From: Candidatus Melainabacteria bacterium SSGW_16
Lineage (GTDB): Bacteria; Cyanobacteriota; Vampirovibrionia; 2-02-FULL-35-15
Assembly: GCA_004769085.1 (NCBI GenBank)
Contig: DUDS01000020.1
Span: forward strand, 1-62,208
Direction: 5' to 3'
Length of the DNA: 62,208 nucleotides
The translations under genes were made by a program, and so were the position numbers. Of the stretch, positions 19,214 through 30,225 are shown piece by piece (the stretch's first letter is position 1; each line of letters opens with the position of its first letter). Under the pieces are notes generated by a model. It saw nothing but the letters and a program-made list of their open reading frames with translations. It made no database searches and had not been told where the DNA came from.

Positions 19214-19900
19214 TTACTTTTTCTTTCTGCTACGAAAATCTTCGTATATCTTTTTCGTAATATCTGCAGCTACATCCTTGCCGCCAAGACCAAAGGAAAG
19301 AACACATGTAGCCACAATACCCGTAAATAGTATCTCTACAAGTGGTCTTGAAATCTGCAACTGATGCAGTGATGCCAATATACCAAATGTATATATGGCA
19401 ACTTTGGCAAGTCCCGAGAAATATCCAAGATCATCTTTTACTAAGGTGCCAACCATATTTGAAACAAATGTTGCAAGCAAAGATGCAACCACAAGAATTA
19501 ATACTGCAACAAAAACATTTGGCAGATAAAAAAGAACCTCATTAAAGAAGTCAGTTACCTGGGTTAGCTTTGCAACATCTGCTGCTGCTATAAATACAAC
19601 GATTAAAATAAACCACTGCACAAGCTCACCAAACACTTTCGAAGTATTTATTTTAATGCCCAGATTTTGTGAGATTGGGTGAAAAATTGTTTTTTCTAAA
19701 GCAGAATCAATTTTTAACTTCTTAATTCCGCTTTCAACAACCCCGGCAATCATCATTGCAATCAATGAACCAACAATCAGTATTAAAATTGCTCCAATTA
19801 TATTAGGCAATATATAAAATATTTTATCCAAAAGTGTAGTTAAAGCTGACTGAAGCGCTGATGTCCAGTCAAGAATTAGTGTTTTTGTTCCTTGCATCAT
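19214..19900 (-). CDS. CmpX-like membrane protein (conserved TM-helix repeats)
   Basis: 228 residues with about five membrane segments. Two copies of the conserved TM-helix motif occur: LPNIIGAILILIVGSLIA (about 34-51) and LPNVFVAVLILVVASLLA (about 125-142). They are the hallmark of the MscS-related TM_helix family (CmpX). The C-terminus has the short MscS-like FGLGGKDVAADITKKIYEDF. The cytoplasmic beta domain of true MscS is missing. It may gate ions or solutes under membrane stress. It is downstream of the EF-hand-like cluster on the same strand (108-bp gap). Confidence 0.85.
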   Translation of the reverse strand: MMQGTKTLILDWTSALQSALTTLLDKIFYILPNIIGAILILIVGSLIAMMIAGVVESGIKKLKIDSALEKTIFHPISQNLGIKINTSKVFGELVQWFILIVVFIAAADVAKLTQVTDFFNEVLFYLPNVFVAVLILVVASLLATFVSNMVGTLVKDDLGYFSGLAKVAIYTFGILASLHQLQISRPLVEILFTGIVATCVLSFGLGGKDVAADITKKIYEDFRSRKKK

Positions 19901-20008: not shown

Positions 20009-22141
20009 TTACTCTCTTATCCTTAATGGTAATTCACGATGTCTTCCTGGCTCATTTCTATACTGCATAGAGAATTCATTACCAGTAGCCCCTGGGCTAA
20101 AGAAGTCAACCTTAATAGACCATACTCCGCCACTAAATACAGGTGTAACTCTTATACCACTGGCTTCTAAAAGCCTTAGAGCAACATCGCTATTCTCATA
20201 CCTTTCCGGAAAGTCACTTCTAGATGTATTCATTAATCTTGGATTTCCTATAATTATTCTTCCGCTGCTATCTATTCCTACTGCAACTACGTTACCCGCT
20301 CTGCCTGCTACAGTCTCTGCATATTGATTTGGTATTCTTATATATAAATTACTGTCAGCATTTACTTCTGTTGTCGAAAGTGGTTCAGTTGTAATGGTTG
20401 TTGCACCAACAGCAGTCGGACTATAATCAGCCCCTACAGTCCTTCTAGGCGGATTAACACCAGCAATACCTGCTACTCTTCTTGTGCCAGGTAAAGGGAC
20501 AGGTGTAACTGTTGCAGTACCTGAAACCCCAGCTGCTTGATAAGAACCATTATCCTCAGGATCAAATGCTCTCCAATAGCGAGCACCTGGTGCGAGGTAA
20601 TATTGATTGCCTGTATTCATATCACTCATAAATCCATAGTTACCAGTGTAGATTTGTCTTCCCGGAAATAATCTTCTTGCTCCAGGTGGCAATCTATCTA
20701 GAACCCTTTGCGCTTCAGCAATTTCAGTTGCTCTTGAAGAAGACGGTTCAGATGATGTTGGCGATGATAGAGTTCTTATTCGTCCTTGAATTATTCCTTG
20801 TAGTCTTCTTATGTTTGTTTTTATTCGCTCAGGAGTTTGAGGAGAATTATTTAAATCTGCAAGAAGGCTTTCGAGGGCTCTGAGTTGATCAATAGTCATA
20901 TCGCCAATACTTGTACTTGCAAAATCAGGTAATCTGCCTATAAGTTCATTAAGCCCTTCGATATTTGCTTCTGTTAGTTCTCTATGTAATCGGGTTATTG
21001 GATTTTGAGCACCAGGTTCTCCCACCCCTCCAAATGCTCCGCCAGGAGGTACATCAATATTTCCTTCTCCTTCTTCAAAAACATAACCAATTTTTCTAGT
21101 GTCTCCATGAGGTGATATGGATCTTTGAATCTCTACTGTTCTTCCATCAGCACCAACTTTTAAAATTACATTATCAAAACCAGGATGTTCAGACTGTCCA
21201 TTATAGGCAGCAATAATATCTCCGGGTCTTAATCCTCTTTCTGTTATTACTGCACTTCCAATACTTTGTCCAAAATTATCAAAGAAGCCCCTGAATCCTG
21301 ATCCATTCTGTCCTAAAAATGCACTGCTGCCTGATGCTTGTGTCCATTGTCTTGCCATAAGATCCATACTGAATGGTGTGTCTTCCCTTACACTTTTTGC
21401 AAAAAGTTCATTAAAGTCCTGCTGGAATTGACCTATATTTTCAGCTCCGTATGCAGTCATTGCCCATTGCCTTATTGCTCCTATTTCCTGGATACTTAAA
21501 AATTTAATACCTCTTCTATCATTGTTCCAGAATGAGTGAAGTATTTTTCTTAGATCTCTTCTGTTACCTTCAAGCCCCTGAAGTTTTGGATCATTATCAG
21601 CTAATCTGGATGACTGAAGTGCTCTTTGTGCAGCACGAGCTAATCCTCCGCTAGGAAGGCTAAATGTATTTCCTACATTTCTAAGTCTCCATCTTTGCAT
21701 TCCATTTTCTATCTGGCTCACTGTTTGTGGTCCACCAGGAAGTCTGCCAGCAAGTCTGTTAACATCAGGAACATCAGTTCTAACTGCATCATTAACTGCT
21801 CCTTCATTTGTAGCAGGTGTAGTCGTAACTATTCCAAGCTGTCTTGCACTATTTGATAATGCCTGCTGAAGTGCTACAAACTCATCACCTGCATTAACAT
21901 TTATTAAATCTCGCAGAAATGTTATTTCATTTGCATCAAGAATGTTATTTCTATTCCCAACACTTCCAGCACCTACGAACTGATCAACATTGTCTATTAA
22001 TATTTGCCTGGTTGTAGCAACATTCAGTGCATTACCATTTAATGCTCCACCGTCTCTAAGAGCATTCAAAACCCTTCTATGGTTATCATTCAGCACTGGT
22101 CGTGGTGCAGGCTGGGGTTGGTTTATATTAAATGGTGGCAT
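20009..22141 (-). CDS. large modular protein of the EF-hand-like paralogue cluster (710 aa)
   Basis: No signal peptide and unknown function. Modules seen: a Pro-rich start; a helical EF-hand-like N-terminal module (about 20-103) with a degenerate loop VGNRNNILDANE; a helical region joined to a beta segment (about 190-356) that aligns with the same module in the 449- and 849-residue neighbours (RPGDIIAAYNG to IGYVFEEG); a helical linker (about 385-460); an about 80-residue domain (472-551) with LFPGRQIYTGNYGFMSD and YYLAPGARYWRAF that recurs in the 849-residue protein; and a unique C-terminal beta-rich domain. It is last of five same-strand paralogues, 17 bp from the next. Confidence 0.75.
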   Translation of the reverse strand: MPPFNINQPQPAPRPVLNDNHRRVLNALRDGGALNGNALNVATTRQILIDNVDQFVGAGSVGNRNNILDANEITFLRDLINVNAGDEFVALQQALSNSARQLGIVTTTPATNEGAVNDAVRTDVPDVNRLAGRLPGGPQTVSQIENGMQRWRLRNVGNTFSLPSGGLARAAQRALQSSRLADNDPKLQGLEGNRRDLRKILHSFWNNDRRGIKFLSIQEIGAIRQWAMTAYGAENIGQFQQDFNELFAKSVREDTPFSMDLMARQWTQASGSSAFLGQNGSGFRGFFDNFGQSIGSAVITERGLRPGDIIAAYNGQSEHPGFDNVILKVGADGRTVEIQRSISPHGDTRKIGYVFEEGEGNIDVPPGGAFGGVGEPGAQNPITRLHRELTEANIEGLNELIGRLPDFASTSIGDMTIDQLRALESLLADLNNSPQTPERIKTNIRRLQGIIQGRIRTLSSPTSSEPSSSRATEIAEAQRVLDRLPPGARRLFPGRQIYTGNYGFMSDMNTGNQYYLAPGARYWRAFDPEDNGSYQAAGVSGTATVTPVPLPGTRRVAGIAGVNPPRRTVGADYSPTAVGATTITTEPLSTTEVNADSNLYIRIPNQYAETVAGRAGNVVAVGIDSSGRIIIGNPRLMNTSRSDFPERYENSDVALRLLEASGIRVTPVFSGGVWSIKVDFFSPGATGNEFSMQYRNEPGRHRELPLRIRE

Positions 22142-22158
22142 TTAAAATTTCTGTCCTT

Positions 22159-22854
22159 TTATTCAACTCTAATATAATAATTTTGTCCATCAACAGTAAT
22201 GCGATATGTCCCTGTAACAGTATCATTAGCTACTTGAATTGTGCCATCTGTATTTATCCACAATCTTTGCACAACTCTTGAACCGTTAATAGGCATCCTT
22301 CCACTTCCAGGACCACCAAATAAACCATAACCGGGTGCACTTACATTAGTCATCACCTGACTTCCTAAGCCTGGTATTCTACCTATAGTCACTCTTCCAG
22401 TAGTGGGTCTTGGAGCTATTGTTGGGGACCCGCTACTAGTACTTATAGTAGGAGGAGGCGGTGTTGGTGGTGTTACAGGAGGCGGTGTCGGTGTTACAGG
22501 AGGCGGTGTTGGTGTTACAGGAGGTGGTGTTGGCGTTACAGGAGGTGGTGTGGTTGTAGGTGGGGGCGGGGTTAATCTTTCTCTAACAATAGTTCTCAAA
22601 AGTGCCTGAGCTCTTTGCAATCTTGCTTTTTCATCATCAGTAAGACCTGTAACTGAAGCTAAATCAACTGTTGTCATTGTCTCAAGAACTGTTCCTCCCA
22701 TTTCTTCACTACTTATAAATGAATCAGAGTTTCTATCTAGTGAACGAAAATTAGATGCAACATATCTTCTTATTTCATCCTGACTAACATCAGCTCTACT
22801 ACCTACTAAACTTAGTAGATTTAAAATTGCTGGGTTGCTTCTATCTATTGGCAT
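22159..22854 (-). CDS. EF-hand-like protein with Pro-Thr repeats (231 aa)
   Basis: The N-terminal module (1-96) has one canonical calcium loop, DRNSDSFISSEE (residues 40-51), and helices on both sides. It is nearly identical to the N-terminus of the adjacent 301-residue protein (MPIDRSNPAILNLLSLVG in both), so the two arose by recent duplication. A Pro/Thr/Val linker (about 96-140) consists of TPPPVTP heptads. The C-terminal portion (about 160-231) is Gly-rich then beta-like (RLWINTDGTIQV). There is no signal peptide. Function unknown; it could bind calcium. Confidence 0.72.
   Translation of the reverse strand: MPIDRSNPAILNLLSLVGSRADVSQDEIRRYVASNFRSLDRNSDSFISSEEMGGTVLETMTTVDLASVTGLTDDEKARLQRAQALLRTIVRERLTPPPPTTTPPPVTPTPPPVTPTPPPVTPTPPPVTPPTPPPPTISTSSGSPTIAPRPTTGRVTIGRIPGLGSQVMTNVSAPGYGLFGGPGSGRMPINGSRVVQRLWINTDGTIQVANDTVTGTYRITVDGQNYYIRVE
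22465..22560 (-). repeat. 21-bp tandem repeat encoding Pro-Thr heptads
   Basis: About four consecutive 21-bp units (GGTGTTACAGGAGGCGGTGT plus one base on the + strand) with few mismatches encode TPPPVTP on the minus strand. This array is prone to expansion or contraction. Confidence 0.85.
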
Positions 22855-22911
22855 GGTTATATTTTTTCCTTTCTATATCACTTACTCTCCCTAAGCAAAA
22901 ATTGTGCAGCA

Positions 22912-23817
22912 TCAATATACATTAATAAACTCTCCAGACCCTACCGATCTTAGAGCTTCATCTAACTGCTCCCAGGTTCTAGCTTCTAGCATACTTCGCG
23001 TAAAGTTTACTTGAGACTCACTTTCAAATCCATATCCCGTTATATCTCCACTTTCAGCATCAAACCCCCCTCGATGATCAAACTGAACTCTAATACTCCC
23101 ATTCTGATTAACGTAAACGTAGTAATCAAGGTTAGACCTCCAAGTGCCTTCTTGATGAGTAATAGTAAAAATATGTCCATAGTTTGGGTTATCCTGAGCT
23201 CTTCTTACTCTGTTTGCAAGATCACGCATTGATCTTATATGTTCTGTCATAGAATCAGTGCAACCATAATAGCTAGCACATGAAACCAAGCTTGTAGCAA
23301 GCATATCAACATAAGCTGGATCGATATTTTCCCCATGCTCCCTTACATGCTCAGCAAATAAACTTTGAACATAAGTTTCAATGTAATCTCTCCCTTCTTC
23401 ACCTGGAATCCTAAGTACTGCATCACGCAATCTTTGATTAATCTGGAATGCAGTCAGTGATGATGTAGTCGTTGTTTCTCCACTAGGATTTGCTTCATCT
23501 GACGGTGTCGCATCTCCTGCCGGTGGAGGTGGAACAAGCCTTTGAGTAATTACTGAGCTTAAAAGTTCTTGTGCTCTCTGCAATCTTATCCTTTCATCAT
23601 CAGTTAAACCGTCTACCGACGTTAAATCTACTGTAGTCATTGTCTCAAGAACTGTACCTCTTGCTTCTTCACTACTTATAAATGAATCACCATCTCTATC
23701 AAGATTGCCAAAGTTTGATGAGACATACCTTTTTATTTCATCCTGTCCAACATCAGATCTATTACCCACTAAACTTAGTAGGTTTAAAATTGCTGGATTG
23801 CTACGATCTATTGGCAT
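22912..23817 (-). CDS. EF-hand-like protein (301 aa)
   Basis: The N-terminal module has a canonical calcium loop DRDGDSFISSEE (residues 40-51) and the segment RGTVLETMTTVDL also found in the 231- and 449-residue neighbours. A short Pro/Ser/Thr linker (about 96-120) is followed by a helical stretch and a beta segment (YVYVNQNGSIRVQFDHRGG to GYGFESE). That segment resembles, in shortened form, the helical-plus-beta module of the larger paralogues. Two to three Cys near 180-187 are unusual for the cluster. No signal peptide. Function unknown. Confidence 0.72.
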   Translation of the reverse strand: MPIDRSNPAILNLLSLVGNRSDVGQDEIKRYVSSNFGNLDRDGDSFISSEEARGTVLETMTTVDLTSVDGLTDDERIRLQRAQELLSSVITQRLVPPPPAGDATPSDEANPSGETTTTSSLTAFQINQRLRDAVLRIPGEEGRDYIETYVQSLFAEHVREHGENIDPAYVDMLATSLVSCASYYGCTDSMTEHIRSMRDLANRVRRAQDNPNYGHIFTITHQEGTWRSNLDYYVYVNQNGSIRVQFDHRGGFDAESGDITGYGFESESQVNFTRSMLEARTWEQLDEALRSVGSGEFINVY

Positions 23818-23829
23818 GGTTTAAACTCC

Positions 23830-25179
23830 TTATCTTGCTGGAGGTGGAGTTGGGATTGTTCTTATATAGCTCTCAAGTTGACCAATTAAAGTTCGAATCC
23901 TATTTGCCAAATTCTCGTTTCTACCATTTGCTAAATTAAGAAGTGTCTGCAAATGTCCTTTTAATGTATTGAGAGCTATCGGATTGTTCATAACAGCTGA
24001 TATAGAAGGTAAATCAGCATATGCATCTAAAGCAGCTTTAGCAACATCATAAGAATTCTGATCAGGAACAGCAGCTAATAGATTTCGAAGATTTGCCGGA
24101 TCGTTCAATACCACTTTAATTTCATTTAATTGATTAAAAAGCTGGTTGTCTGTAAGACTAGCCCCTCCTGCTGCTACAGGTCCTTCTACTATTTGATAGG
24201 TTGTTCTTTTGGTTGGGTCTGATGGATCATGTTCTAAAAACACAATTGATCCATCTGGGTTTCTTTGAACTGCTAAAGAGCCAAAAATACCCCCATCTCT
24301 TGTCCCATCATAATTCCCAACTATGCCAGTTTTTCCAGCAAAAAAAGTTGCATTATCAAGTATTCCCTTTACAACTCCCTTCAAAAAGTTTTTCATGTCT
24401 TCACCACCAATACCAGCATCAAAATTAGTGCTTTGTATAAGGTGCAAAAATGAATCCAAAACAAATTGGGGATCAAGTCCTGAATCTGCTCTATTTAAAT
24501 ACAAACCCATTTCCCTAAAGAAAGACTGCTGAAATGCATCAGCAGCACCTGGATTAGTAGCCCTTAGTTCCTGAATATATTTAAAAACAGCTACAAGTTC
24601 CTCCATTCTAAATACCTTTGTACGCACACCGTCTATATAATCTTCACTAGACCAAAGATCAGCCACCAAAGCACTTACATTGCCGGCGCCTGCCCTTATT
24701 CTGTTTAAGATAGCTGTTATGTTTATTTGTGTGGGAGGCCTTCCACCACCACCTGCAGAACCAACTCTCATTCTTGACCATCTATTAGCAGAGTCTTCAG
24801 AAATTTCATATGGATCAATTATCAAAGGAGCAAACTCATTTGGTGTACCCCTTATTGGATTTGGCGGCACAAGTCTTTCCGTTACAACAGATCTTAATAA
24901 CTCTTGAGCTTTTCTAAGTCTTGTCATTTCTTCAGGAGTAAGCCCTGTAACAGTTGCAAGATCAATAGTTGTCATTTGTTGTAAGACTGTACCTGCAGCA
25001 ATTTCAGCAGGGTCTATTACATCATTTCTGTTTGTATTAAAGGTGTCTTGAGAAATAAATCTTCTTACTTCACCTCTTGTAAGTTCATTGTCTGTTCTGC
25101 CAGGTCCAGCAGGCCTTCCAAAAGCTGAGTTGGATAAATTAAGCAGCTGTACTATTGCTGGATCAGTTCTATCTACCAT
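23830..25179 (-). CDS. EF-hand-like protein with helical/beta module (449 aa)
   Basis: N-terminal module 1-105 with a relaxed calcium loop NTNRNDVIDPAE (48-59). Residues about 120-332 align along their length with residues 127-353 of the 849-residue protein: SEDSANRWSRMR / NETNRWSGVR, LWSSEDYIDGVRTKVFRMEE / LWRNEDYIAGQRRQVFRVEE, LDPQFVLDSFLHLIQSTNFD / LDPQFVMDSFIQVLQSTDFS, and GGIFGSLAVQRNPDGS. The C-terminal 110 residues are helical and end Pro-rich. There is no signal peptide and I recognise no named family. Two family B repeats with TATAAA-like tails pointing this way lie just upstream. Confidence 0.72.
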   Translation of the reverse strand: MVDRTDPAIVQLLNLSNSAFGRPAGPGRTDNELTRGEVRRFISQDTFNTNRNDVIDPAEIAAGTVLQQMTTIDLATVTGLTPEEMTRLRKAQELLRSVVTERLVPPNPIRGTPNEFAPLIIDPYEISEDSANRWSRMRVGSAGGGGRPPTQINITAILNRIRAGAGNVSALVADLWSSEDYIDGVRTKVFRMEELVAVFKYIQELRATNPGAADAFQQSFFREMGLYLNRADSGLDPQFVLDSFLHLIQSTNFDAGIGGEDMKNFLKGVVKGILDNATFFAGKTGIVGNYDGTRDGGIFGSLAVQRNPDGSIVFLEHDPSDPTKRTTYQIVEGPVAAGGASLTDNQLFNQLNEIKVVLNDPANLRNLLAAVPDQNSYDVAKAALDAYADLPSISAVMNNPIALNTLKGHLQTLLNLANGRNENLANRIRTLIGQLESYIRTIPTPPPAR

Positions 25180-25713
25180 TTATATTTAGTTCTGATTTAT
25201 TGGCTTAAAATAAAAAGCTTTAATCAAAACCCCTGTATTTCATCTCACCATTTCACGGCCATTAACCAGCTCATGAAACTCCCACCCACTTATGTAATCT
25301 GATCATCGTTATACTCTTATTAAAAACACTTTCCTGTCTTAATACAAAAGTGGTTAATTTTTTCTTACCCCGAAAAACAAGTAAGTTAAAAGGAATTCAT
25401 AAACCATCCAGATGATTAATATATATACTTCTGGGGGTAATTCTCAGGGTTAACCTATCCTTAATACCGCTCGCTTTGCGCGAACGCTCAGCTCGCTTGT
25501 AGAGTCACGACGCTTTTTGGTGAATGAATCACACAAAAAGCTTAGAGAGTAATTTACTCATTACCTAAATCTTTCCTTTAACTCTTTTTTATACCGCTCG
25601 CCTTGTGCGAACGCTTGGCTCGCTTGTAGAGTTTCATCGTTCAGAATATTCCTCACCGGAACATTCTTCGCTTAGCTTAACAACACATAGACAATTATCT
25701 ATAAATAGACACT
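25180..25713. other. intergenic gap inside the EF-hand-like cluster
   Basis: 534 bp without an ORF, separating the caspase-like gene from its four smaller paralogues. It holds two family B repeats, listed separately, and otherwise AT-rich sequence. No clear terminator is seen. Confidence 0.5.
25462..25676 (-). repeat. two family B repeats in tandem
   Basis: A nearly complete copy at about 25584-25676 (hairpin GAATATTCC/GGAACATTC on the + strand, tail TTTTTTATACCGCTCG) and a truncated one at about 25462-25514 (TTAATACCGCTCGCTTTGCG). Both point to the minus strand, so their TATAAA-like tails face the 449-residue gene. A promoter role is inferred. Confidence 0.75.
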
Positions 25714-28263
25714 TCAGGCAAGTGAACCAAAATATTTTCTTTGTTCATCCGGGTCTATTGCGGTTACTGCAGCACCACTGTAGCAAGCATCAATTATTGT
25801 AATTGTTTCTACACCGTTTAAATATTTCTTATAGAGATTTTTCATATATGTCTCAGTCGGACGCACTCTAAATCCAAATCTACTAAGTCCATATTCAAAT
25901 TCCCTGCTTCCTTGTTTTCCTGAGTTTCTTGCAGCTACTCCTGCTTGTGCTCCAATGTTCGAACCATGTCCACTATAGAAAATATATAATTTTCTACCAT
26001 TTCTTTTTGCACTTTCAGCCCTGGCTTGCAAAGCTTTTTCAAATTCAGCTTGGTTTGGATCATCCAAGATAGTAAAATTTTTACATTTATCTCCGTAGGT
26101 ATTAGTTACAGCATCTTTTGTAACCTCACCATCCAGCCTGAAACAGGTTTTTTGTGTATCCCCGTAATACGTGCCTACTACAAAGAGTACCTCAAAATCT
26201 TTTACTTCTGAATGATTTGCATTTGGATCGGCAGATAGTCTGTATTTTGGACTATGAGGAATAGAACTTTTATTTACAGCTTTATCTGCTGCAAGTGCAG
26301 CATCTTCTATTGATATATTTCCTTTTCCTCTAGCTACCTCACGTGCAATTTCTGTAAAGTATTCACTGCCATATTTATAATCTCTATAAAAATCTGCTCT
26401 CTTTGATCTTACAAATTTTGCCAGATCTCCACTGCTGGGATTGCTAGGTGGGTATTCCGGATATGAAACTCTTGAACCTTTTGTTTGTACCTGGTTTGTA
26501 AAAACACTATGTAGAGATGGATATTTTACATCACCGCTATCCTCCAGAGACAACACATCAGAGCTTTGATTTGTTACAGGGGGCTTTGGACTTCCGCCAC
26601 TTGGTCCTCCACCTGTTACAGGTGGCTTTGGTGAAATTACCACAACTGGTGGTTTTGGCGTTACTACAACTGGTGGCTTTGGCACTGGCGTTGGTGTTAC
26701 TACAACTGGTGGCTTTGGCACTGGTGTTGGTGTTACTACAACTGGTGGCTTTGGTGGCACTGGTGTAGTTAGTGTAACTGTTGCATTTCCTGAAACTCCA
26801 TTTGCCTGGTAAAAAGCATCATCTGCTGGACTAAATGATCTCCAATAGCGAGCACCTGGTGCTAGGTAATATAGATTTCCTGTTCTTTTGTCACTCATAA
26901 ATCCATAACCACCGGTATAAGCCTGTCTTCCTGGATATAACTTTCCTGCAAGTGGCGATCCATTAAGTACACTTAGTGCTTTATCAATTTCAGCTTGCCT
27001 TGGATTTGGTGATGTTGCTGGTGTCACTACCACTGGTGGCTTTGGCACTGGCGTTGGCGTTACTACAACCGGTGGCTTTGGCACTGGCGTTGGCGTTACT
27101 ACAACCGGTGGCTTTGGCACTGGTATCGGTACTGGTGCGGGTGGAACTCCTGATCCCGCTCCAGCTCCACCAGGAGGTGGTAAGGCAGCAGGAGGAGCAG
27201 TGCCGGTAAAAATATATCTTGTTTTATTTACTGGAGATGCAGTCTGATGCTCAACAAATGTAAAAGTACCATCATTTTTTCTAATCAATGCAAGTGAACC
27301 AAAAATTCCTCCGTCTTTGGTGCTGTCATAATTTCCAATAACAACATCTGTAGTTCCAGGGTTTGCAGTTTTATTTTTAAAATAATTAGAATTTTGAGCT
27401 ATGCCAACAGTAAGATCTTTAATAAACTGTCCAAGTTCTCTGCTCTCATTATCAGCCGAAAAATCAGTGCTTTGAAGCACCTGAATAAAAGAATCCATTA
27501 CAAACTGAGGATCCAGATTATTTTTAGGATCATTTATATAATCAGCCATTGACTTTTTAAAGGAAGCAGAGAATTTACCTCTTTCCGTAGAAGGATCATT
27601 AGCATCACCAGGAAGGGTATTCATGTAATCAAGCACACCCTTCATTTCTTCCACACGAAAGACCTGTCTTCTCTGTCCTGCTATATAATCTTCATTTCTC
27701 CACAGTTCAAATACTAGTTTTTGTGTTTTCTCATCTACTGAAGCTGAAGGATTTTTATCTATTATGTCTGTAACAATTTTTTTGGATTTATCTCTGTTAA
27801 TTGTTACTTCTTTCCCCTTGAAATCTTTTCTTACCCCTGACCATCTATTGGTCTCATTGACATCAGGAAGATCATAAGGATTTCTGATTAATTCATCACG
27901 GAATAAATGATTTGTTGAATCAATTTTTGGAGGTGGCATAACAGGGCTTGTCTGCTGAAGGGCAAGCTTAAGTGCTGCCTGAGCCTGTTTTAACTGTTCT
28001 CTTAAAATCGGGTCTCTAACTGTACTCAGATCAGCATTTGCCATTTTTCTGAGATCATCTATTTTAGTAGGATCATCACCAGCATCAATTACACCATTTC
28101 CACTAGTATCAAATCTGTCAGCAGCATCAATTCTGCCATCACCATTTGTATCAAAAGCACCTTTTATATATTCCTGAGCTTCACCAAGAGTTACTTCATT
28201 ATCTTTATCATTCACCCTTGTTGTGTGAATAAGGTTTAATAACCCTGTTATTGCATCACCCAT
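25714..28263 (-). CDS. EF-hand-like protein with C-terminal caspase/metacaspase-like domain (849 aa)
   Basis: Module order: an N-terminal helical module with two EF-hand-type loops, DTNGDGRIDAAD (38-49) and DTSGNGVIDAGD (52-63); the helical-plus-beta module (about 127-353) shared with the 449-residue neighbour; KPPVVVTPTPVP repeats (about 384-415); the about 80-residue domain KLYPGRQAYTGGYGFMSD...YYLAPGARYWRSF (about 425-500) shared with the 710-residue protein; more KPPVVVTP repeats (504-548); and a caspase-like domain (about 690-849) with catalytic His766 in FYSGHGS and Cys827 in IIDACYSGA. The His-Cys dyad is the peptidase C14 pattern. No signal peptide. It is the first gene of the cluster. 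Calcium-dependent proteolysis, as in metacaspases, is a fair hypothesis. Confidence 0.82.
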   Translation of the reverse strand: MGDAITGLLNLIHTTRVNDKDNEVTLGEAQEYIKGAFDTNGDGRIDAADRFDTSGNGVIDAGDDPTKIDDLRKMANADLSTVRDPILREQLKQAQAALKLALQQTSPVMPPPKIDSTNHLFRDELIRNPYDLPDVNETNRWSGVRKDFKGKEVTINRDKSKKIVTDIIDKNPSASVDEKTQKLVFELWRNEDYIAGQRRQVFRVEEMKGVLDYMNTLPGDANDPSTERGKFSASFKKSMADYINDPKNNLDPQFVMDSFIQVLQSTDFSADNESRELGQFIKDLTVGIAQNSNYFKNKTANPGTTDVVIGNYDSTKDGGIFGSLALIRKNDGTFTFVEHQTASPVNKTRYIFTGTAPPAALPPPGGAGAGSGVPPAPVPIPVPKPPVVVTPTPVPKPPVVVTPTPVPKPPVVVTPATSPNPRQAEIDKALSVLNGSPLAGKLYPGRQAYTGGYGFMSDKRTGNLYYLAPGARYWRSFSPADDAFYQANGVSGNATVTLTTPVPPKPPVVVTPTPVPKPPVVVTPTPVPKPPVVVTPKPPVVVISPKPPVTGGGPSGGSPKPPVTNQSSDVLSLEDSGDVKYPSLHSVFTNQVQTKGSRVSYPEYPPSNPSSGDLAKFVRSKRADFYRDYKYGSEYFTEIAREVARGKGNISIEDAALAADKAVNKSSIPHSPKYRLSADPNANHSEVKDFEVLFVVGTYYGDTQKTCFRLDGEVTKDAVTNTYGDKCKNFTILDDPNQAEFEKALQARAESAKRNGRKLYIFYSGHGSNIGAQAGVAARNSGKQGSREFEYGLSRFGFRVRPTETYMKNLYKKYLNGVETITIIDACYSGAAVTAIDPDEQRKYFGSLA
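26641..27126 (-). repeat. 36-bp tandem repeats encoding KPPVVVTPTPVP
   Basis: Two arrays (26641-26757 and 27020-27126) of about three 36-bp units each, with high unit-to-unit identity. They flank the 80-residue shared domain on both sides. The near-identity of the arrays suggests that domain could be excised or swapped by recombination. Confidence 0.85.
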
Positions 28264-28430: not shown

Positions 28431-28871
28431 TCAAAAGGACCTATTTCCAAAACAATAATTTTTTATGTACTGAATAATCTCTCTGAAACCATTGATATTG
28501 TTTGGTTTCCGGATAAACAAATCAGCACCATTCTCATAACAATATTTCATATCAGCCATAGAATCCGAACTTGTAAAAACTACAATTGGAATTGAGCAGG
28601 TGGTTTCTCCATTCTTTATATGTTTTAGCACTTCAAGTCCTGTTACCTTAGGCAAATTTACATCAAGCAGAATCATATCAGGAGGATTTCTTTTACCGGT
28701 CATTATCTCTTCAAGAATCACAAGAGCAGTTTTTCCATTATTTGCAATAACAAAACTGCCATTTATATTACACTCTTTTGCTGCCATTTCAATTAAAAAA
28801 ACATCGTCTTGGTTATCTTCTATAAGAAGAATGTTTATTGTCTTTTCTTTGGCTTTAATTAGTTCAAGCAT
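28431..28871 (-). CDS. Rcp1-like single-domain response regulator
   Basis: Stand-alone receiver domain of about 146 residues: acidic pair in LLIEDNQDDVFLIEMAA, phospho-acceptor Asp in MILLDVNLP, Thr in VVFTSSD and conserved Lys in LFIRKPNN. The EDNxxD...LI.EAL-type opening is that of the cyanobacterial Rcp1 family. I start at ATG 28871 (MLELIKAKEK), which overlaps the kinase stop by 8 bp; the longer frame from 28958 lies within the kinase gene. It is the likely phosphorylation partner of that kinase and has no output domain. Confidence 0.88.
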   Translation of the reverse strand: MLELIKAKEKTINILLIEDNQDDVFLIEMAAKECNINGSFVIANNGKTALVILEEIMTGKRNPPDMILLDVNLPKVTGLEVLKHIKNGETTCSIPIVVFTSSDSMADMKYCYENGADLFIRKPNNINGFREIIQYIKNYCFGNRSF

Positions 28872-30225
28872 CTTTTTTGCCCAAAGGGAGTGTAAAGTAA
28901 AACCTGCTACCTTTACCAACTTCAGAATCAAGCCATATCTCACAACTATATCTTTCAAGAATTTTTTTCACGATAGCAAGTCCTGCTCCTGTTCCTTCAT
29001 ATTCTTCCTGAGCATGCAACCTCTGAAACAAACCAAAAACCTTATCATAATATTCTTTTTCAATTCCAATTCCATTATCCTCAACACATACACATATTTT
29101 ATTGGGATCCAGTCCGGTTTTTTGCATAAGTTTTATATGAAGCTGTGGTTTATCTGATTTATTAAATTTAATCCCGTTTGCAATAATATTTTTAAATACT
29201 GATGAGATTTTTTCCTTACTACAGCATATTACCGGTAAAGTATCATGAATTATAATCTCTGCTTTTCTGCTTTCAATAAATGCAGTAAGTTCAAACTGTA
29301 CTTCTGTTAAAAGAGCATTCAAATCAACCTGCTCATTTTCTTTCCCTTTTGTATCCCTCGTTGCTCTGGCAAGATGAGTAAGATCTTCTATAAGCTTTCT
29401 CATTTTCTGCGTAGCTTTGGCAATTCTAAGCAAATAATCCTGCTGATGAGGGAAAAGATTGTTTCCTAATTTATCCTGAATTATGCTTACAAAACTTTCT
29501 ATTGTTCTTAAAGGTTCTCTTAAATCATGAGATGAAATGTATACAAATGAATCAAGTTCCTGGTTTACCTGCTTTAATACTTCATTTGCCTGTGCAAGTT
29601 CTCTTTCTGACCTTTTTGCAGCCTCAAGAAGATGGTTTCTTTCAATAGTACCGGTTATAACATTTGCCGTAGTTTTCATGAATGAAAGTTCTTCTTCGTT
29701 GAATTCATGAGGTTTTACAAAATAGTTTGTAATTGCTCCAACAGCTTTATTATTTATTACAAGAGGTACCGAAGCTACTGATTTTATCTCGTCAGGATGA
29801 ATGATTTCAGAAAAATATTTTGAAAAGCCAATATTATTTCTGCTTGTATCTTTAATTACCACTATTTTTCTTTTCAGCATGGACCTGACTGAAGGCCAAT
29901 TTTCATGAATATCCTCAGAACTCATACTAGGCATATACTTGTTATTAAATGATTCCATATATCCGTCAGGAAATCCATAAGTAGCTTCAAGATGAATGTG
30001 CTTCCCTGGATTTTTTAAAAGTAAAATAACGCCATAATCTGCTCCTGTAAGTTCACAAAATGGTTTCAAGACTTTATGTGATGCCGTAGCAATATCAGAA
30101 GTAAAAAGATTTGAACAAACATAGTAAATATTTTCAATAGCTTTAAGTTTTTTAAGAGTTCTTTCAATAGCTGTTTCACTGGGTTTTTCCTGTTCTTTAT
30201 GTAGCATGGGTGTTTTAAAAGACAT
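28864..30225 (-). CDS. GAF-domain sensor histidine kinase
   Basis: 453 residues, soluble. GAF-type sensor domain at about 30-200; short coiled linker; HisKA dimerisation domain with phospho-His in YISSHDLREPLRTIESF (about 233-250); HATPase_c with N box FKNIIANGIKFN, G1 VEDNGIGI and G2 GTGAGLAI. The HDLREPLR H-box is typical of phytochrome-like kinases, but there is no PHY domain and I do not see a clear bilin Cys. ATG is preceded by GGAG. It is translationally coupled to the Rcp1-like regulator. Confidence 0.9.
   Translation of the reverse strand: MSFKTPMLHKEQEKPSETAIERTLKKLKAIENIYYVCSNLFTSDIATASHKVLKPFCELTGADYGVILLLKNPGKHIHLEATYGFPDGYMESFNNKYMPSMSSEDIHENWPSVRSMLKRKIVVIKDTSRNNIGFSKYFSEIIHPDEIKSVASVPLVINNKAVGAITNYFVKPHEFNEEELSFMKTTANVITGTIERNHLLEAAKRSERELAQANEVLKQVNQELDSFVYISSHDLREPLRTIESFVSIIQDKLGNNLFPHQQDYLLRIAKATQKMRKLIEDLTHLARATRDTKGKENEQVDLNALLTEVQFELTAFIESRKAEIIIHDTLPVICCSKEKISSVFKNIIANGIKFNKSDKPQLHIKLMQKTGLDPNKICVCVEDNGIGIEKEYYDKVFGLFQRLHAQEEYEGTGAGLAIVKKILERYSCEIWLDSEVGKGSRFYFTLPLGKKDA

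Follow-up and report, generated by a model that had tools for sequence, protein, structure and literature searches.

An EF-hand-like carrier protein ending in a caspase domain, with a predicted p10-first order, at a hypervariable kinase-flanked cassette of a Melainabacteria genome

What is a caspase-like domain doing at the end of one gene in a run of paralogues, and does it work together with its neighbours? This question is raised by a locus of Candidatus Melainabacteria bacterium SSGW_16, which was analysed in a window of 62,208 nucleotides (contig DUDS01000020.1, here C26, of a 2.25-Mb draft genome). According to a preliminary description, positions 20009-28263 hold five consecutive minus-strand genes, and the list of open reading frames (ORFs) agrees, giving products of 849, 449, 301, 231 and 710 amino acids (aa). 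With moderate confidence, we read the 849-aa protein (W849) as an EF-hand-like carrier joined to a circularly permuted, effector-type p10-p20 caspase and encoded in a hypervariable cassette flanked by a kinase gene. Genomes, loci and proteins of relatives are denoted by G, L and P handles, respectively (G000, etc.). The segment preceding p20, the chain end just after the catalytic Cys, the conserved flanks and the lysine depletion reported below were not part of the preliminary description.

The caspase end of W849 is matched by Pfam C14 over aa 731-830; against a cut-off of 21.4 bits, the domain alone scored 24.0 and the genome search 24.5, and the whole protein fell just below with 21.0. The His766/Cys827 pair proposed earlier lies at exactly these positions, and both residues, in p20 order, are invariant across seven aligned sequences including that of the window. 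No continuation of the caspase reading frame was found in the gap after the gene and most relatives end alike, therefore the chain end does not resemble damage. The caspase family profile matched 18 of 289 genomes of the class, from which 22 loci were examined, leaving out second copies of one place and contig-end fragments. Conventional enzymes with 158-510 aa after the Cys were found in G055, G094 and G132, and 17 of the other 20 proteins, window included, end 6-22 aa after this residue; the Cys-terminal enzymes span four family groups (f1, f3, f4 and f9). The profile match extended past the stop in three cases (G022, G072 and one of G062). Other genomes of the class gave at most 13 C14 matches each, and most of the strong ones listed cover nearly the whole p20-p10 profile. 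In a set of 5.8 billion proteins, a word-based search bounded by protein length returned five homologues of the caspase profile.

A p10 after p20 is absent from W849, and the block in front of p20 is the candidate for this small subunit. Engineered permuted caspase-2 structures (8vp4 and 9c2y) align from this upstream block on, with Z far above the rest and 13% identity over 192 residues, and conservation of the block almost reaches that of p20 (mean column identity 44%, against 48%). By sequence, relatives within the class display the p10-first order, with a recognisable p10 at the matching position before p20 (three genomes, two family groups), and for the window's own protein this order is predicted from the modelled structure and from a profile link that used five segments cut by hand. 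At one locus (L190, G036:C3), two adjoining caspases with p10-like segments before p20 share 37% identity over the p20 part, both having lipoprotein-like starts.

The N-terminal module had been described as EF-hand-like in all five proteins, which holds for those of 849, 449, 301 and 231 aa but not for the degenerate 710-aa member. A 12-residue EF-type loop pattern occurs within the first 110 aa of four of the five window proteins (DTNGDGRIDAAD at aa 38 and DTSGNGVIDAGD at aa 52 of W849, NTNRNDVIDPAE in the 449-aa, DRDGDSFISSEE in the 301-aa and DRNSDSFISSEE in the 231-aa protein), arising by chance in 5 to 34 of 2000 shuffles for each protein, and is missing from this part of the 710-aa protein. 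A hidden Markov model (HMM) of the module matches the same four proteins (E<=0.01), all of which belonged to its training set, and not the 710-aa one. The EF-core profile matches solved EF-hands over the EF-like part (polcalcin 2opo, E 1.8e-4); its homologues were four proteins of the 5.8-billion-protein set, among the best 7995 candidates by shared words.

Behind this module, a core of helices and C-terminal strands is modelled in W849 mostly at a predicted local distance difference test score (pLDDT) of 75-97, with no convincing match to solved or viral folds. The reuse of modules in different combinations, as proposed earlier, is borne out by sequence comparison: the core is present in the 849-, 449- and 710-aa proteins (its HMM maps its own training members), and the YYLAPGARYWR (YYLAP) domain of the 849- and 710-aa proteins is 60% identical over 90 aa. 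The YYLAP HMM also matches a 711-aa protein of G004 and a 609-aa protein of L068, the latter being the only match outside its training members. The same N-terminus stands on exchanged C-termini in W849, P0006 and P0007. P0006 (703 aa) is 63% identical to the first 353 residues of W849, with no caspase seen; P0007 (677 aa) is 58% identical to the first 363 residues and has a Cys-terminal caspase at its end, with just 33% identity to that of the window; it is thus a second EF-core-caspase fusion that partially rescues an association of caspase and carrier. In a tree of 11 p10-p20 domains, P0007 is placed away from the window's domain, and the approximately unbiased test speaks against a single clade of W849, P0003 and P0007 (p 0.014); therefore the carrier seems, on sequence grounds, to have been joined to such caspases on two occasions, with the cautions of a long branch of P0007 and an odd letter make-up of P0007 and G003. 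The EF-like module and core are the constant carrier of the cassette, and the C-terminal ends, varying by protein and genome, include the caspase, the YYLAP domain, SFSRPGYTG-type repeats and helical ends. Another case of exchange was observed in G003 (L062 8012-9238 and 9523-11127), where the products of a caspase gene (534 aa) and of the gene next to it (408 aa) are 95% identical over the first 42 residues, with no match listed beyond. In G004 (L066 1-4414), four adjoining and mostly lysine-poor paralogues with MFILQ at or near the start carry tandem SFSRPGYTG/DGSIFY repeats, which are also present in cassette proteins; a 170-aa cassette gene of the same genome (L054 7393-7905) matches adenosine deaminase below the threshold (E 4e-4, 20.0 vs 27 bits).

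The cassette occupies a conserved site. The histidine kinase is found in all 11 family genomes, with best matches 59-74% identical in the other ten, the MscS-type gene is found at ortholog level in ten (not in G001), and a core-bearing cassette gene adjoins the kinase in nine. The receiver protein beside the kinase consists of a receiver domain only by Pfam, so it may or may not act directly on transcription. In seven genomes, a single contig carries both flanks and one or more core-bearing genes between them, these closed cassettes holding five genes in the window (849-449-301-231-710), five in G006, four in G004, three in G002 and G010, and one in G005 and G009; no receiver ORF was seen for G005. 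In G003 and G007, a core-bearing gene beside the kinase/receiver pair is followed by the contig end; in G001, a 95-aa low-lysine ORF without support from the module HMM lies beside the pair near a contig end; and in G008, the receiver is followed by the MscS-type gene, with 10 consecutive N close to where the latter starts. The core gene lies on another contig in both G001 and G008. Identity to the window is mostly 45-80% for matched flank genes and 23-41% over the matched part for cassette members. Within the window, a 534-bp gap separates the 849-aa gene from the remaining four. A 39-bp element occurs twice in this gap (25464-25502 and 25591-25629), with no further copy in its own genome at up to 2 mismatches, and its fold does not stand out clearly from those of shuffled sequences (z -0.8 and -1.6).

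A further trait of the cassette is lysine depletion. Among 244 ORFs of at least 150 aa from the window and the relatives' loci, which were chosen around such genes and only partly cleared of overlapping shadow ORFs, Lys/(Lys+Arg) had a median of 0.68 and was below 0.2 in 19. We class all 19 as cassette genes, members of the carrier family, G004 repeat genes (three of the four SFSRPGYTG-repeat genes) or genes of the G003 and G008 caspase loci (neighbours plus one caspase itself). Extreme examples are proteins of 371 aa in G003 and 163 aa in G010 with no Lys, and of 506 aa in G010 with one; lysine avoidance was seen at window positions 20009-25179 and at L051, L053, L055, L056, L062, L064, L066, L067 and L073, and arginine is raised in the low-lysine proteins. 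The 849-aa gene has similar GC and normal lysine, therefore base composition does not explain the depletion; the carriers of G002, G004, G006 and G007 also have normal lysine. Lysine deserts are discussed for ubiquitin- and pupylation-exposed proteins (PMC10665810, PMC10169902), and it is conjecture that low lysine might hide the carriers from host ubiquitin. As Vampirovibrio is predatory (PMC4451040), a eukaryotic partner is conceivable.

Table 1. Features of the cassette, its modules and its conserved flanks in the window.
Feature	Position	Strand	Basis
849-aa protein: EF-like module, core, Pro-rich linkers, YYLAP domain, predicted p10-like segment, p20 caspase	25714..28263	-	ORF list, domain searches
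EF-hand-like module, aa 4-104 of 849-aa protein, calcium-type loops at aa 38 and 52	27952..28254	-	
Core module, aa 136-354 of 849-aa protein, helices and C-terminal strands	27202..27858	-	
YYLAPGARYWR domain, aa 422-503 of 849-aa protein	26755..27000	-	
p10-like small-subunit segment (predicted), aa 567-688, before p20	26200..26565	-	
p20 caspase domain, aa 689-849, ends 22 aa past catalytic Cys	25717..26199	-	
Catalytic His766 codon	25966..25968	-	
Catalytic Cys827 codon	25783..25785	-	
449-aa protein: EF-like module and core (aa 129-332), 11 Lys	23830..25179	-	ORF list, lysine count, module HMM
301-aa protein: EF-like module and own C-terminus, 1 Lys	22912..23817	-	ORF list, lysine count, module HMM
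231-aa protein: EF-like module and own C-terminus, 1 Lys	22159..22854	-	ORF list, lysine count, module HMM
710-aa protein: core (aa 145-357), YYLAP (aa 472-551), without EF loop, 8 Lys	20009..22141	-	
GAF histidine kinase, conserved flank upstream of cassette	28864..30225	-	Pfam, neighbourhood comparison
Receiver-only response regulator, conserved upstream flank	28431..28958 (ORF; Pfam run on 28434-28838)	-	
MscS-type conserved-transmembrane-helix protein, conserved flank downstream	19214..19900	-	Pfam, neighbourhood comparison

From this architecture we infer proteolytic activity, calcium binding, export and protein targets. With a p10-like part in front of p20, the enzyme would fold ready to cut, without the usual interdomain cleavage of animal caspases. 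The carrier would take the protein to where it acts, which is probably outside the cytoplasm; export is suggested because of the Cys-poor, Pro-rich make-up and of the lipoprotein-like or membrane-like starts recognised by eye in relatives (P0002, P0004, the two G036 proteins, G032 and G056). Calcium loading of the EF-like loops may then gate or position the protein, and the caspase end would cut target proteins, so that location and calcium, and not a cut between the domains, would exert control.

Several observations weigh against this reading. HMM searches detect no p10 in W849, and PDB and Pfam searches with the p10 rows of its family return no caspase; compared profile to profile, its p10 and conventional p10 agree weakly (14 of 400 shuffles did as well, and 2 of 150 once relatives were added), G056 fails a leave-one-out test with conventional p10s, and the five segments of the profile link are hand-cut. 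The p10 segment is modelled at a middling pLDDT of about 47-87 by blocks from a 12-row alignment. Of the 20 proteins that are not conventional enzymes, three depart from the ending 6-22 aa after the Cys: two divergent ones of G062 (L182, L173), one with 60 aa after its Cys and the other without a Cys recognised by pattern, and the second G036 protein, which has no such Cys in its cut-off version and 28 aa after the Cys in the full reading. The EF-hand-like modules are supported by their loops and by the EF-core profile match, but no window protein passes the Pfam EF-hand cut-off (best score of W849 16.2 vs 25.9 bits, 18.6 for the N-terminal part alone), and the region is poorly modelled, with pLDDT <50 at aa 1-39 and 43-68. 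Finally, W849 itself is not lysine-poor, no signal peptide is seen in it by eye, and no VirB4 was seen in the genome.

A simpler explanation is an ordinary orthocaspase, in which only p20 is caspase and the upstream block is an unrelated prodomain or autoinhibitory segment. Such p20-only enzymes are common in prokaryotes and MaOC1 is active, according to passages of PMC6426788 and PMC5756287, and the failure of direct sequence searches to recognise a p10 in W849 fits this view; however, the alignment of permuted caspase-2 from the upstream block on, the conservation of this block and the p10 at the same position in class relatives make it rather unlikely. The cassette might also encode structural or adhesive surface or matrix proteins, the caspase end autoprocessing its own chain, as would suit the Pro-rich and collagen-like linkers, the repeated small domains and the Cys-poor make-up. 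PMC3482391 does describe caspase domains as peptidases that process surface proteins and polymorphic toxins, but there the processing versions are usually followed directly by another C-terminal domain, whereas here the caspase is last, in the effector position, and we regard autoprocessing as doubtful.

The joint system suggested in the preliminary description, a calcium-triggered caspase with the other four genes as adaptors or substrates, agrees with the shared modules, the single-strand gene run and the caspase genes adjoining other lysine-poor modular genes in G003 and G008. The neighbourhood survey finds no conserved co-localisation, however, an outcome that the preliminary description itself had named as refuting: only the window's cassette, of the seven closed ones, holds a caspase (none in G002, G004, G005, G006, G009 or G010), genomes with closed (G002, G004 and G006) or broken or gapped (G003 and G008) cassettes carry their related caspase genes on other contigs, and the 534-bp gap sets the 849-aa gene apart. 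This system is consequently quite improbable, although the caspase fold on which it drew is recovered. An anti-phage defence protease has very little to commend it: PADLOC weakly matches W849 to a caspase model (E 0.0095) and the receiver to PDC-M60B (E 3.1e-5), but Pfam shows the latter to be an ordinary response-regulator domain, for the remaining cassette proteins PADLOC offers nothing better than E 0.04, and the conserved neighbourhood consists of signalling and MscS-type genes.

In agreement with the preliminary description, no described system with this layout was found in the literature searched. The favoured permuted caspase resembles in order the type III metacaspases of algae (e.g., GtMC2), which have p10 then p20, as predicted here, and a His-Cys dyad; these were compared by description, not by sequence, and differ in that the present family is bacterial, most relatives stop 6-22 aa after the Cys, and the window p10 rows match no Pfam or PDB caspase. 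For the acidic calcium-binding residue at the p10 start of type III enzymes, no invariant counterpart was seen near the start of the upstream block, its register to eukaryotic p10 being provisional. According to PMC6426788, prokaryotes have yielded no type III metacaspase. Engineered circularly permuted caspase-2 (8vp4, 9c2y; cpCasp2, PMC7760212) resembles W849 in order, fold and a C-terminus shortly after the Cys, but is man-made from the human enzyme and distant in sequence. Orthocaspases and bacterial metacaspases (C14) share the p20 with His and Cys, and differ in having the ordinary order or no p10. Polymorphic toxin and effector families share a constant N-terminal carrier, exchanged C-termini and a caspase as last domain; unlike in these, we identified neither an immunity gene nor a known secretion leader or a neighbouring secretion gene, Pfam, NCBIfam and PADLOC giving no convincing match to the first two in the window cassette.

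Taken furthest, and as a speculation that we ourselves consider rather improbable, these non-photosynthetic relatives of cyanobacteria would possess a caspase "born already cut", with p10 ahead of p20 and the chain ending at the point of cleavage in animal caspases; in one family it would have become the exchangeable end of a calcium-sensing, often lysine-free carrier at a kinase-controlled locus, sent against eukaryotic partner cells while low lysine hides the carriers from ubiquitin. If the favoured permuted reading is right, a p10-first caspase, described from algae and protein engineering, would be natural in one bacterial class, offering a candidate bacterial counterpart of the type III enzymes and a natural test of why caspases need a cut between their parts. 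The hypervariable cassette, nearly free of lysine and adjoining a conserved kinase gene, would likewise provide a handle on how these uncultured bacteria treat their neighbours.
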